This document shows positions 8,071-27,599 of a DNA stretch of 32,056 nt, piece by piece (position 1 is the stretch's first letter; every line of letters starts with the position of its first letter). Made by a program: the position numbers and the translations under genes. The notes beneath the pieces were generated by a model. That model was not told the DNA's origin. It did not search any database and worked only from the letters and a program-made list of their open reading frames with translations. The stretch is from Saprospiraceae bacterium. Its GTDB lineage: Bacteria; Bacteroidota; Bacteroidia; Chitinophagales; Saprospiraceae. The stretch lies in the NCBI GenBank assembly GCA_016787285.1, contig JAEUUV010000201.1, positions 1 to 32,056 on the forward strand, in the 5' to 3' direction.

Positions 8071-8093
8071 GGATGCGAGATTTTTGGCACTGA

Positions 8094-8121
8094 GTGATGA
8101 GCGATGAGTGATAAGCGATGA
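8094..8121. repeat. Four 7-bp units (GYGATRA) upstream of the beta-helix gene
   Basis: Units GTGATGA, GCGATGA, GTGATAA and GCGATGA follow each other without gaps, ending 23 bp upstream of the minus-strand ATG at 8070. In the mRNA they read as UCAUCRC-type heptamers. Related units occur near three other start regions. Confidence 0.85.
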
Positions 8122-8205
8122 GCATGTCTCCGCTCACAAAGCCGGCAATTTGCCAACACGGTTGGTCATTGTCCGACACTATGGGTTGAGAAAACAATGC
8201 AGACA

Positions 8206-8267: not shown

Positions 8268-10696
8268 CTATCGCTTTCCGAGTTTGCCTTGAGCGGTCAT
8301 GTCGCCTGCCCGAAGGATGTACCAGTAAAAACCCGATGGGCGTTGTGCCAGATCGGTTACACTGATTTCGTTTAGCCTGGCAGGGAAAATGCCATAATTG
8401 CTGCTCACCAGCGTACCCGTCGCATCGAAAATATCGAGTTGCACCCGGCTCTCGCCCGGCAGTTCAAATGAAATAGCCACTTCCGAAGTGAAGGGCATCG
8501 GGTATGCGGTAGTGCGTAACGATTTCGATGCGCGAGGGTTTGTTCCCGGAAGGGTTGGCCGGCGCAGGCCCTGTGGTACATTCGAGATGTGGAGCGTGAG
8601 CGATACATTGGGGACGAGCACCCCGTCTTCGTCGTAGAAAAAGAAAGGCAGCACGTTTTTGTCCAACTGCAAGGCGTCGGCCAAATTGACTGTGCCCTGA
8701 CTTGCTGTCACATCGAACTCGAAAAGCACCTTGTTGTGGATCGAAACCGGTTCATCGTCTTCGGCATACCAAATCGCCCGCAAGTGACCCGGGTCAGGTA
8801 AAGAGGTGTCGGGGGCGATGCTGAAGTTCTCCTCGTCGAAGAGTTCAGCATCAGTGCCGGGAGCAAGGTCGAAGAGTATCAGGGAATCGGAAGCATAGCG
8901 TGCGCCAAACTGCCAGGCGACCACCTCTCTTGAAGCAGAAGCGATTACCTGAACACGTTTGGTACCCGAAAAATTTACACTTGTAAGACTGGACGAGTCA
9001 ATCAGGAATTCGTGGTCATCCCCAGAAAAGGAAGAGTCGTCAATATCGGCATTGCAGTTGACGTCGCCAAGTTTGACGCCGGTGAATGACCATGCTGTTT
9101 CGGCGCCCGCGACGGCCGAATTGAGATGGTGATAGACAAAATCCATCCAGGTGGATACGGGCTTTCCATTAACGACGCCCTCCTTGTAATGGCGTTCAAT
9201 ACCATAATCATCGATAACAGTTGTGGCAAAAGGGTTGAAACTAAATGCGTTCCAAAAACCCGTATTCTCCGTGAACAGCTTGGGCACATAGCGCCAGCTC
9301 ATACCTGAAGGAAATTGCTGAATAAGGCCAAGAATGAGCATACGAATGGCAATAATGTCACTGCTACTTATTCCTCCGTTGTTGTTTACGTCTGCAGCAA
9401 CCATCTGAAAGGGATTGGGGAAGGGTACCACTCCAAGAATGTGTTGATTAATTCGAACCATGTCAAAAGCTGTCACTCCATTGAGCGGATTATTGCCAAA
9501 ATTTCGGTCAGGATATACCCGGCGCAAGGTTCCAGGCAACGGGCATGGTTTGATTTGGTAGCGCCCGAGTGTGTTGGTCATGTTGTCTTGCGGATCGCAG
9601 TACAAGTTCGCAGCATGCTGAACCTCAACAGGGACATAGATTATTGGGCTTACGGAGTTGTTAATCAAGACATCTTCGCAATTCCGTTCGATATGTCCAA
9701 AAGTGGGGAAAATACACTCCTCGGGTGGTGGTTTCAAGAAGGCGTAGTCAGGGATATATTGATAGAGATAACGCATCACTTGACGCTGCTCGTCGGAGAA
9801 ACGATTGCCGCAACCGCCGTAGCCCATGAGCAATGTTGGGTCGGGGTTGTATGGGAGGCCGAGTGGATCAAAGCCAGTAGGACATGAAGTAATCTGGCAG
9901 TTAGTGATGCTACATTCGCCAGGATCGGCAGGTGTGTCGCAAAAGCCATCACCCGTGTGGAGGCAGGTATAAGACAGCCCGCTGATCGTGACCGGGTAAT
10001 CTTCAGGATTGGTAGCGTGATGCACATATTGTCTATCTGCTCCGCCTAAATAGGTATGTGGGAGGCCGAAATAGTGACCGAGTTCGTGCGCCCATGTCTG
10101 GCTACCCATCCCACCCAAAAAAACGCCCGGGTAGCTGTAGTTTAGCGGGTCATAGGCATAGGCTACGGCAAGAGGATTTCCATTTGCCTTGACATTCCCG
10201 GTGTTAGTTAAAAAAACACGAACGCATTTGTCCGCGTCAGGCTGATTAAGCCCTGAAAGGTGTGTCCACAAGTTGCCAAGATCGGTCTCGATATCCAGAT
10301 CGGCGTAGTCATCATTATCAATGGTGGTAGACCCACAGAGGTGGAATTCAAAGAGTCCCCCAAAGTAAGTATTAACAGCCTCGATAGCTTGCTCAGCATC
10401 CGGGTTTGGGATATTTGAACTGCCGTTAGTCTGGCGCAGATGATAAAACCAGACGCCTACCTTCCAAACGCCATTTGCGGCCACACTGCCGCTTGCTACG
10501 GCATTCTCGCCGGTGGTATCAATTTCAGCCAAAATGGCTTGTCGCTGTTGAGGGGAAAGGCCGGGGGCGCTGCATTCCACTACGCCCTGTGCATGAACCA
10601 GCATGGTGCAAATGGTAAAAAGAAAGGCTAGCGTGAAGCGGTGAGCGGTGAGCGGTGAGCGGTGAGCGGTGAGCGGTGAGCGGTGAAGTTTAACAT
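8268..10696 (-). CDS. M43-family (pappalysin/cytophagalysin-like) metalloprotease with dockerin-like segment and T9SS sorting domain; start region frame-broken by 7-bp repeats
   Basis: A secreted zinc protease. The motif WAHELGHYFGLPHT gives HExxHxxGxxH, and a downstream LMGYGGCGNRFSDEQ resembles the family's Met-turn region. A later VAADVNNNGGISSSDIIAIR and LGDVNCNADIDD look like dockerin-type calcium repeats. The last ~80 residues (AYPMPFTSEVAISFEL ... PSGFYWYILRAG) form a T9SS sorting domain. A signal-peptide core (FTLAFLFTICTMLVHAQG) is present but has no in-frame ATG before it. The frame is open upstream only to a TTG at 10769 (with a second TTG at 10742). The good ATG at 10696 enters seven 7-bp repeats (10638-10686) and exits in the wrong frame, stopping at 10628. 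One extra repeat, or two fewer, would fuse it to the signal peptide. The 5' limit given is that ATG; the continuous in-frame body begins at the signal peptide. Confidence 0.8.
10638..10686. repeat. Seven perfect 7-bp tandem repeats (GCGGTGA) at the 5' end of the M43 protease gene
   Basis: Seven uninterrupted copies of GCGGTGA (TCACCGC on the coding strand) lie between the ATG at 10696 and the signal-peptide core. Seven is not a multiple of three, so each gain or loss of a unit shifts the frame. With seven units the ATG frame terminates at 10628; with eight, five or two it would read into the protease. Confidence 0.93.
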
Positions 10697-10842
10697 CGTG
10701 GGAGTTGTTTTTGGTGAACGAAATAAATTGGAAAGGCCACAAAAATAGTAGATTGTTTTGAAAAAACAACAGCCACCAATGTTAAGGTTTTCAGGGAGTT
10801 GTAAACAGGGAGGGGGGCAACTCCTGAGTAAGGTTACCAAAA

Positions 10843-14452: not shown

Positions 14453-14582
14453 GGTTTAACGGGTTTAACGGGTTAAGCAGGTTTAACGGGTTGAGCGAGT
14501 TAGAGGGCCAGGTGTTTTTCTTAAACCCGTTAAACCCGTTAAACCCGCTCAACCCGTTAAACCCGCCAACCCGTTAAACCCC
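14453..14582. repeat. Intergenic hairpin of 9-bp units (GGTTTAACG family) between tRNA-Leu and tig
   Basis: About six units of GGTTTAACG/GGTTGAGCG type (14453-14504) face about six inverted units (TTAAACCCG, CTCAACCCG; 14521-14582) across a ~16-bp centre. It occupies nearly the whole gap, and on the minus strand it is followed by T7 before the tig start. Related units recur at 27461-27599 and 27803-27850. Confidence 0.88.
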
Positions 14583-22789: not shown

Positions 22790-22859
22790 GCGATGAGTGA
22801 TGAGTGATGAGTGATGAACACCCTACGGGACTCATCGTTCATCACTCATCGCTCATCGC
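22790..22859. repeat. Symmetrical hairpin of 7-bp units (4 + 4 inverted)
   Basis: Four units (GCGATGA, then GTGATGA three times; 22790-22817) face four inverted units (TCATCGT, TCATCAC, TCATCGC, TCATCGC; 22832-22859) across 14 bp. It lies in the 95-bp gap between the carbamoyltransferase stop and the DUF5989 start. Confidence 0.9.
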
Positions 22860-22868
22860 TAACAAAGT

Positions 22869-25904: not shown

Positions 25905-25949
25905 GAGCCAATCGAATCAATCGGACTTAATCGAATCAATCGAATCAAT
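25905..25949. repeat. Direct 9-bp repeats (AATCGAATC) after the GH113 gene
   Basis: About four to five units of AATCGAATC, one of them degenerate (AATCGGACTT), overlap the last codons and stop of the glycosidase gene. Unlike the other arrays there is no inverted arm. Confidence 0.7.
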
Positions 25950-26985
25950 CCCTTCCATACCACTGCTGCAACGTCTGTTCTGCGCGTTTGCCCTGCGGGG
26001 TGTAGTCGCGTTCGGGATAACCTTCGTGGCCGCGCATATTGGGAAACCACTTCCAGAGAAAACCACCGGCCCACCAGTTTTCGGCCTGATAGGTGGCAAG
26101 CAGGGCTTCGATGCAGTTGGCCTGGGCTTGTTCGTTGATTGGGCGGGAGGTGATGTCGCGTTCCAGTTCCCAGTTTCGCCAGCCGGCGCCGTTCACGCTG
26201 AGGTAGCCGAATTCGGTGAAAAGTACGGGGCGGTTGTGCTGTTGGCTGAAGTCGCGCAGTTTACCTGCGATGGGTTGCCAGGCAGTTTTTAATGATTCCA
26301 CGGTCGGCGTATCGGCGTCCACGAGCGGGAAATAGCCGCTTAGGCCGATGAAATCGAGTTTATCCCAGAAGGGAATGTGCTGCCAGTCGTCCCAGTTGGC
26401 AGAGTAGGTGAGTTTGCCGGAATAGGCCGCCCGCACTTTTTTGATGAGGTTTTGCCAAAACTGCGGGCGCTGTTCGACTGATTTTCGGAATTCGGTGCCG
26501 ATGCAAAACAGGTCAACCTCCGTAGAGTCGGCCAGGCGGGCCATGCGCAGGATATAGCGTTCGTAGTCGGCTTCCCAGGCGGCCCATTGTTCGGCAGTGT
26601 CGAAGGTCAGGTGGCCGGTCCAGGATCGGGGCACATACACCTGGGGTTTGAGCATGACCCGGATGCCGGCCTCATGTGCCAGCCGGATCGTTTCGCGCAC
26701 GCCGGCGGGTCGTTCGCCCCACCATTGCCAGCCCTCCTCCTGGTAGCGCACCGAGGGGGCGCCCGTCCGGGTGAATGCGTACGGCACCACAGCGATCCAG
26801 CCGGCGCCGGCGCCTTTTACCGCAGGCATCGGATTTTCCGGAAAAGGCTCGGGGGGCGCCACCAGTGTCAGGCCGTTAATTTTACCTGCTCCCGGCGCAG
26901 CAGCGGCCTGAATCGGGAGTGGTCCCGGTTGCGAGCAACGGCAGAAAAAAAGCAGGAGCAGAAAAAAAAGGCCAGGTGCTTTCAC
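25945..26985 (-). CDS. Glycoside hydrolase family 113-like protein, probable lipoprotein
   Basis: A TIM-barrel glycosidase of about 346 residues. The likely start is the GTG at 26985; the only upstream in-frame start codons lie inside the HIT gene. An N-terminal hydrophobic stretch (GLFFLLLLFFCRCSQPG) with Cys15/Cys17 suggests a lipoprotein, though the lipobox is not canonical. GH113 hallmarks are VAPPEPFPENPM, the acid/base Glu165 in CIGTEFRKS and the nucleophile Glu258 in VLFTEFGYLS, with WKWFPN near the end. Characterised GH113 members are beta-1,4-mannanases; many relatives have unknown substrates. It heads the SGNH-carbamoyltransferase group with a 103-bp gap, so a shared glycan target is plausible but unproven. 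Confidence 0.87.
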   Translation of the reverse strand: MKAPGLFFLLLLFFCRCSQPGPLPIQAAAAPGAGKINGLTLVAPPEPFPENPMPAVKGAGAGWIAVVPYAFTRTGAPSVRYQEEGWQWWGERPAGVRETIRLAHEAGIRVMLKPQVYVPRSWTGHLTFDTAEQWAAWEADYERYILRMARLADSTEVDLFCIGTEFRKSVEQRPQFWQNLIKKVRAAYSGKLTYSANWDDWQHIPFWDKLDFIGLSGYFPLVDADTPTVESLKTAWQPIAGKLRDFSQQHNRPVLFTEFGYLSVNGAGWRNWELERDITSRPINEQAQANCIEALLATYQAENWWAGGFLWKWFPNMRGHEGYPERDYTPQGKRAEQTLQQWYGRD

Positions 26986-27460: not shown

Positions 27461-27599
27461 GGTTGAACGGGTTTGGCGGGTTGAGCGGGTTGAGCGGGTT
27501 GAGCGGGTTTGGCGGGTTGAGCGGGTTGAGCGGGTTGAGCGGGTTTGGCGGGTTGAGCAGGTTGAGCGGGTTTGGCGGGCTTAACGGGTTAACGGGTTG
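27461..27599. repeat. Array of about fifteen 9-bp units (GGTTGAGCG / GGTTTGGCG)
   Basis: Direct units of nine bases alternate between GGTTGAGCG and GGTTTGGCG, ending in GGCTTAACG-like variants. It forms the left outer arm of a hairpin whose right arm (inverted units, 27803-27850) lies beyond a 200-bp palindromic core. Together they fill the HIT-greA gap. Confidence 0.9.

Follow-up and report, generated by a model that had tools for sequence, protein, structure and literature searches.

How does a gene that is open along its whole body come to have its only start codon in the wrong frame? A putative metalloprotease gene of a Saprospiraceae bacterium (assembly GCA_016787285.1) raises this question. 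It lies in a stretch of 32,056 nucleotides, hereafter referred to as the window, which is the entire contig C42 (JAEUUV010000201.1) of its genome (G000; 345 contigs, 5.56 Mb). Seven perfect CACCGCT units separate the sole ATG (10696) from an intact 789-residue secreted metalloprotease, and the two are mutually out of frame. The gene is, very probably, a simple-sequence-repeat (SSR) contingency locus controlled by slipped-strand phase variation. We consider this the best reading of the sequences compared here because repeats of different units share the same slot in relatives, copy number and frame differ between copies, both frame states occur, and selection on the protein is purifying.

Organization of the locus

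In the sense of the gene (minus strand), the ATG is followed by TTAAACTT, the seven CACCGCT units (GCGGTGA on the plus strand), the hydrophobic core of the signal peptide FTLAFLFTICTMLVHAQ and the 789-residue protein. The repeat, whose unit is not a multiple of three, thus lies between the start codon and the gene body. The array codes for HRSPLTA in every frame, without a stop. Translation from the ATG yields MLNFTAHRSPLTAHRSPLTASR and ends at a TAG (10630-10628), whereas the protease frame runs uninterrupted from the array as far as the stop at 8268. The distance from the ATG to the core is 59 nt, with the protease in frame 2 relative to the ATG, and the two are in frame when the unit count is 2 modulo 3. 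An earlier note on this DNA had claimed that seven 7-bp units put the ATG out of frame, that its frame meets a stop at 10628, and that one unit more or two fewer would restore the frame; Tandem Repeats Finder and our reading of the frames bear out the first two claims, and the arithmetic of the third holds.

A search of the whole genome with an 18-base pattern of the array (2.6 copies, at most one mismatch) gave eight overlapping matches at two places only, the window gene and a paralog on contig C103, in both cases directly after the ATG.

The repeat slot in related genomes

A scan of genome contigs with the single protein found no relative, and a scan with a family alignment gave at least 92, of which the best 80 were considered, from metagenome-assembled genomes (MAGs) with Saprospiraceae-type names; the best-matching named relatives were Saprospiraceae, Lewinellaceae and Chitinophagales MAGs. 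We defined a close family of 11 members, comprising the ten best catalytic-domain matches and the G007 ortholog of the G009 gene, the catalytic part of which is deleted. Nine had a readable 5' end and two were cut at contig ends: in G025_C61 the contig end falls inside a GCTCGGT array, and the G062 sequence starts partway through the signal peptide.

A frame-shifting repeat of at least two copies was found between the ATG and the core in all nine readable members (eight of nine by the automatic threshold). Five different units occupy the slot, and these define five groups within the family, a grouping by repeat unit with no tree behind it. CACCGCT is present in 7.1 copies in the window gene and 5.3 in its C103 paralog, both off; CACGCAT in 2.9 copies each in G017 and G020, both off; CCACATT in 4.4 copies in G008, in frame; GCTCGGT in 4.7 copies in G064 (off) and 2.1 in G025_C45 (in frame); and AC in 12 copies in G009 and eight in G007, both off. 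Two members of the strict family are therefore in frame and seven out. Two more distant relatives, G030 (CACGCAT x3.3 in the slot, in frame) and a Saprospiraceae MAG with ATGGT x7.4 (off at the first ATG, the pentamer itself supplying in-frame ATGs), bring the tally to three in frame and eight out, one third in frame being the chance expectation. A more distant G017 copy (C273) has a gap of 305 N directly upstream of the core. Contig breaks and a gap at the slot are an expected effect of a repeat of mixed length, but they are only suggestive.

Copy number differed between related copies, with a change of frame. The seven and five units of the two G000 paralogs land in two different wrong frames; the off G064 and in-frame G025_C45 arrays share the preceding ATGTCTAAAC context; and the flanks of the (AC)12 and (AC)8 tracts are 91-97% identical. 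The earlier note had proposed comparing repeat units in related genomes, and in that comparison copy number, unit and frame all vary and the count is not fixed at seven. The gene body is under constraint: nonsynonymous (dN) and synonymous (dS) divergence between G017 and G020, both off, are 0.035 and 0.292, and this protein is under purifying selection (dN/dS about 0.12). For C42 and C103, dN is 0.287 and dS is saturated at 2.55. Both frame states occur, and the gene body is intact and constrained, but three of the nine copies are damaged downstream.

In the wider scan the slot was mostly empty. Among the best 80 of at least 92 relatives, 18 lacked a recognised signal peptide and in one a contig edge interrupted the array; the remaining 61 comprised seven with a frame-shifting tract and 54 without. 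Four of these seven tracts were weak (poly-A/poly-T of 8-9, or TATATTT), and the clear ones were among the four best matches. More distant type IX secretion system (T9SS) matches were inspected by eye. L118, L122, L123 and L124 showed no tract, and L117, L119, L125 and L126 were unreadable. L116 has a TC run and an out-of-frame ATG; L120, which is in frame, has a heptamer within the core; and L121 corresponds to the C162 locus described below.

Repeats near the starts of other genes were also seen. Two G009 regions (C1:1376224-1378107 and C3:905100-905900) carry 100% identical reprolysin-like gene sequence with a TCTCGCC repeat after the ATG, the matching sequence being interrupted in one copy by about 1.1 kb of other DNA. 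In G020, tetranucleotide arrays lie shortly upstream of the ATGs of secreted-protein genes (L150, TCAC x10.8; L148, GTGA and TGAG x5.5), a possible promoter- or leader-type repeat switch.

Promoter and start of translation

A perfect TTG-N19-TAnnTTTG element, which we take from the Bacteroidetes literature to be the housekeeping promoter consensus of that group, precedes the gene in both G000 paralogs, with identical spacing and identical distance to the ATG. The G008 ortholog has the element at -40, and the full match was absent from the other eight 5' ends compared. The element is modestly enriched in the sampled genome, upstream of five of 152 signal-peptide genes versus 0.7 in shuffled sequence.

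The earlier note had offered in-frame TTG codons at 10769 and 10742 as alternative starts. This proposal fails: the first TTG is the -33 element of the promoter and the second closes its -7 box, both are placed alike upstream of the C103 paralog, and hence neither is expected in the mRNA. In G017 and G020, moreover, a stop interrupts the protease frame ahead of the core, and no ATG, GTG or TTG precedes the core in that frame. ATG 10696 is therefore the only sensible start of translation.

The encoded protein

The features of the locus are listed in Table 1. The complete metzincin motif HExxHxxGxxH was found in the window protein and in four of six aligned members; its three H and the E are invariant in all six, and the G is replaced by T in G008 and G025_C61. 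The window protein scored 18.9 bits against the Pfam M43 profile, below the cut-off of 23, as did G025_C61 (15.4), whereas C103 (24.7), G020 (31.4) and G008 (26.7) passed, that is, three of the five close family members scanned. The M43 label given in the earlier note thus falls short of the Pfam cut-off for this copy. For the T9SS sorting domain, the C103 paralog passed TIGR04183 at 23.6 and missed PF18962 (17.7 versus 27). Judged from its predicted domains, the protein is best described as M43-like, a metalloprotease of the kind exported by the T9SS. Another metalloprotease with a T9SS sorting domain, the 837-codon open reading frame (ORF) L149 (G020:C6), has a C7A7 run and stops between the ATG and the signal-peptide core, without a clean in-frame start.

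Table 1. Coordinates and supporting details of the features of the window locus
Feature	Position	Strand	Details
-33 TTG element, Bacteroidota-type promoter	10767..10769	-	Spacing and ATG distance as in paralog C103
-7 box TATTTTTG	10740..10747	-	Final three bases are TTG 10742; -51 to -44 from the ATG in both paralogs
Start codon ATG	10694..10696	-	Not in the protease frame when the array has seven units; promoter distance equal in paralog
Off-frame ORF	10628..10696	-	22 codons, produced at seven units; frame f0
Putative phase-variable array	10637..10686	-	Period 7, 7.1 perfect CACCGCT copies, 100% matches, score 100 (Tandem Repeats Finder); top-scoring period-7 array of the window; two such arrays in genome
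Signal-peptide core, protease and stop codon	8268..10637	-	789 codons, counting from the final base of the array (10637); open, without in-frame start
HELGHYFGLPH zinc-binding motif	10056..10088	-	HExxHxxGxxH, metzincin type
Dockerin-like domain	9345..9476	-	20.1 bits versus cut-off 22.9; family profile matches 4uyq, E 3.4e-6
C-terminal T9SS (type A) sorting domain	8295..8504	-	Slightly under cut-off: 22.3 versus 23 bits (TIGR04183), 22.9 versus 27 bits (PF18962)

Controls and background frequencies

Single-domain M43 proteases of the same genus served as a control; 22 loci were read among 60 weaker catalytic-domain matches, one of them without a recognised signal peptide. None of the 21 with a recognised signal peptide had a repeat in the slot, and 20 of the 21 had an in-frame ATG. 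The difference from the close family gave a Fisher value of 7e-8 (1.5e-6 if eight of nine is used), the rows compared not being phylogenetically independent.

Signal peptides were recognised with a home-made rule (a hydrophobic core followed by [AGSC]Q). In three sampled genomes, any frame-shifting tract near the core was found in 28 of 319 signal-peptide ORFs (26 of 317 if the two G000 family genes are omitted), and many of these tracts were poly-A or poly-T of 8. A 7-mer tract within the 60 nt ahead of the core occurred in two of 179 G000 signal-peptide ORFs, which are the C42 and C103 genes. Generic intergenic heptamer arrays were therefore rejected as a full explanation, since the common arrays have other units, AAAACTC and ACTCATC being frequent, and slot 7-mers are confined to these two of the 179 ORFs.

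The window itself holds heptamer arrays of other units (ACTCATC and TGAGCGA types) in intergenic positions, at 8091-8123, 22792-22817 and 22831-22860, the last two forming a pair of facing inverted arrays. Nine-base tandem arrays (GGTTGAGCG, GGTTTAACG and CAATCGAAT types) are present at 14453-14496, 14521-14581, 25909-25950 and 27461-27599. For periods 4 to 15, exact arrays were most numerous in the genome sample at period 7, followed by period 9.

Poly(C/G) tracts before signal peptides

Poly(C/G) tracts of at least 9 gave 39 matches in G000, of which 11 were set aside (nine at contig ends and two at one misassembled place on C329), leaving 28 internal tracts. By an automatic rule, five of these (C22, C162, C193:2827, C221 and C335) lie at most 75 nt upstream of a signal-peptide core, versus 0.34 expected (P 2e-5). 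By reading, nine tracts have the layout ATG, tract, signal peptide, namely the five above together with C77, C158, C193:8772 and C222; three are in frame and six out, and C162, C221 and C222 are the least certain. L305, L311 and L325 passed a hydrophobicity filter and were excluded by eye. The P value of 3e-11 for nine of 28 rests on eye reading, and the rule-based value is preferred.

Of the products tested, that of C22 is a beta-helix protein carrying a T9SS sorting domain, that of C335 is a PKD protein and that of C162 is of the T9SS type. Two lipoprotein genes, L313 (C158:7381) and L320 (C193:8772), are 92% identical over 326 nt around the tract, which has 12 C in the former (off) and 11 C in the latter (on); a lipobox, identified by eye, ends the signal peptide. 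L306 (C77) and L319 (C193:2827) are paralogs that code for secreted proteins and share 82% identity over 1.8 kb; their tracts after the ATG have 11 and 10 C, and both genes are out of frame. A similar lipoprotein gene occurs in two genomes with few contigs, G009 (7) and G007 (9). The G009 copies L368, L370 and L372 have 12 (on), nine (on) and seven C (off), the last with an extra A in the preceding A run, and the G007 copies L369 and L371 have 12 and nine C, both on; two further partial G007 matches had no readable tract. In G009, the layout was found in three of the 30 poly(C/G) tracts examined, of 49 found. Taken together, the protease looks like one switch in a set of putative SSR phase-variable genes for surface and secreted proteins.

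Long poly(C) adjoining AAAACTC-type sequence was also seen at G000 contig ends (L132, 1-119; L057, 1-98; L046, 27-45), and these stretches look like assembly or base-calling artefacts.

Weighing the explanations

Slipped-strand phase variation, as suggested in the earlier note, is supported by the repeats in all nine readable members, by their varying copy number and frame, and by purifying selection. According to this model, transcription would begin just downstream of the TTG-N19-TAnnTTTG promoter and translation at ATG 10696, and the ribosome would read through the heptamer array, which would form the n-region of the signal peptide. Slipped-strand mispairing would alter the number of units, and this number would determine whether the ATG reads into the core and the metalloprotease exported by the T9SS; with seven units, as assembled, the gene would be off, giving 22 residues and then a stop.

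It is unlikely that the gene is decayed or permanently off, the repeat having once switched and the seven-unit state having become fixed in an unexpressed gene. Seven of the nine readable members are indeed off, G009, G007 and G025_C45 have further damage downstream, and G017 and G020 retain a single off frame. However, the C42 and C103 frames are intact, the dN/dS of about 0.12 was obtained for a pair in which both copies are off, and the in-frame to out-of-frame tallies are near those expected by chance. A start at another point of the protease frame (at TTG 10769, at TTG 10742, at a rare start codon or by reinitiation), leaving the repeat without control of expression, is very unlikely: in-frame TTG codons are present, but both belong to the promoter, and the G017 and G020 frames offer no such codon before the core. 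A programmed ribosomal frameshift linking the ATG frame to the protease frame, which the off state of most copies could suggest, seems less probable again and was rejected, given that the off copies need different shifts (frame 1 in five of eight, frame 2 in three of eight), three copies are already in frame, and with units that differ there is no conserved slippery site. The least probable explanation, with a very slight chance of being correct, is that the out-of-frame state is an assembly or sequencing error. The assembly is a draft of 345 contigs, with artefact-like poly(C) at some contig ends. Nevertheless, the 50-nt array is shorter than ordinary short reads, and the layout and off frames recur in the paralog and in relatives whose genomes were assembled separately, two of these assemblies having few contigs.

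Several observations weigh against phase variation itself. The evidence for variation comes from comparisons between copies and relatives and not from within one clone. G017 and G020 have an identical 2.9 copies and the same off frame despite a dS of 0.29, and 2.9 copies would be too few for more than rare slipping. The G009 and G007 copies are damaged downstream (frameshifts and an internal deletion), and G025_C45, in frame at its repeat, carries a frameshift further down; in-frame copies of meningococcal autB are likewise reported to have other damage (PMC5118866). Heptamer arrays of at least 19 nt are common, with 38 in a G000 sample of 0.855 Mb, which was non-random (20 of its 81 stretches were chosen for holding search matches); they are often intergenic and mostly built of other units, and there is no excess of 7-mers as such ahead of signal peptides. 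As for the wider set, poly(C/G) tracts of at least 9 are not over-represented (12 in the sample versus 18 in a Markov model), only their placement being unusual, those of at least 10 (nine versus four) lie mostly at contig ends, and the C162 gene has a second in-frame ATG downstream of its tract.

Since heptamers are common and not enriched before signal peptides, the case for phase variation rests on the relatives: the argument is not the rarity of heptamers, but that all readable close members have a repeat in the slot, with units that differ among them. We infer that slippage of the array takes place within a clone, that an in-frame product would be exported, and that switching may be selected, for instance against phage, grazers or costly exoprotease production. 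More broadly, we lean towards the view that this Saprospiraceae lineage runs genome-wide simple-repeat switches in the n-regions of signal peptides of secreted and surface proteins and that, as the protease slot seems to outlive the unit, with different heptamers and a dinucleotide taking each other's place in evolution, selection acts on switchability and not on the sequence.

Comparison with known systems

SSR phase variation is known mainly from host-adapted pathogens, and the genus of Saprospiraceae-group Bacteroidota studied here is, we assume, environmental. The layout is kept across the genus on exported proteases and lipoproteins, suggesting that random on/off switching pays outside a host too. 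These loci form a concrete, sequence-readable set for testing exoenzyme and surface-protein switching in metagenomes, and the change of unit at a fixed slot offers a natural way to ask if selection maintains evolvability itself. Our literature searches, outside of which fell subscription papers and preprints, found no paper joining Saprospiraceae with phase variation or with tandem repeats and frameshift, and none combining three of the terms Bacteroidota, phase variation, simple sequence repeat and type IX secretion. When Bacteroidetes was searched less strictly, 69 papers joined three of four terms, so our statement of novelty is limited to Saprospiraceae and is not extended to the whole phylum.

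The opa genes of Neisseria have CTCTT pentamers in the signal-sequence region (PMC13183285) and resemble the window locus in having a frame-shifting repeat within the code for the signal peptide, a copy number that sets the frame, and several loci per genome. They differ in that a single pentamer is used, on surface proteins of a human pathogen, whereas here the unit varies and the product is a T9SS-type metalloprotease of the Saprospiraceae group. In autB and autA of Neisseria and Haemophilus, AAGC tetramers directly follow the start codon (PMC5118866), and in-frame copies are often damaged further, as here; however, one tetramer is found across both genera, the products are autotransporters, and variation was counted over many isolates. 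Helicobacter pylori oipA has CT dinucleotides in its 5' region (PMC10564699). The G009 and G007 orthologs also have a dinucleotide tract in this region, but oipA encodes an outer-membrane protein of a gastric pathogen. We know of no repeat-unit turnover at oipA. TAACTGA direct repeats, found in Beggiatoaceae, Cyanobacteria and five Bacteroidetes (PMC4679880), are also tandem heptamers near start codons, but they lie mostly upstream of the starts and were proposed to be regulator-binding sites, whereas the array described here is inside the code and sets the frame. By analogy, the window locus would work like opa and autB; its novelty lies in the host group, in a protease as the cargo and in a repeat unit that changes while the slot stays.
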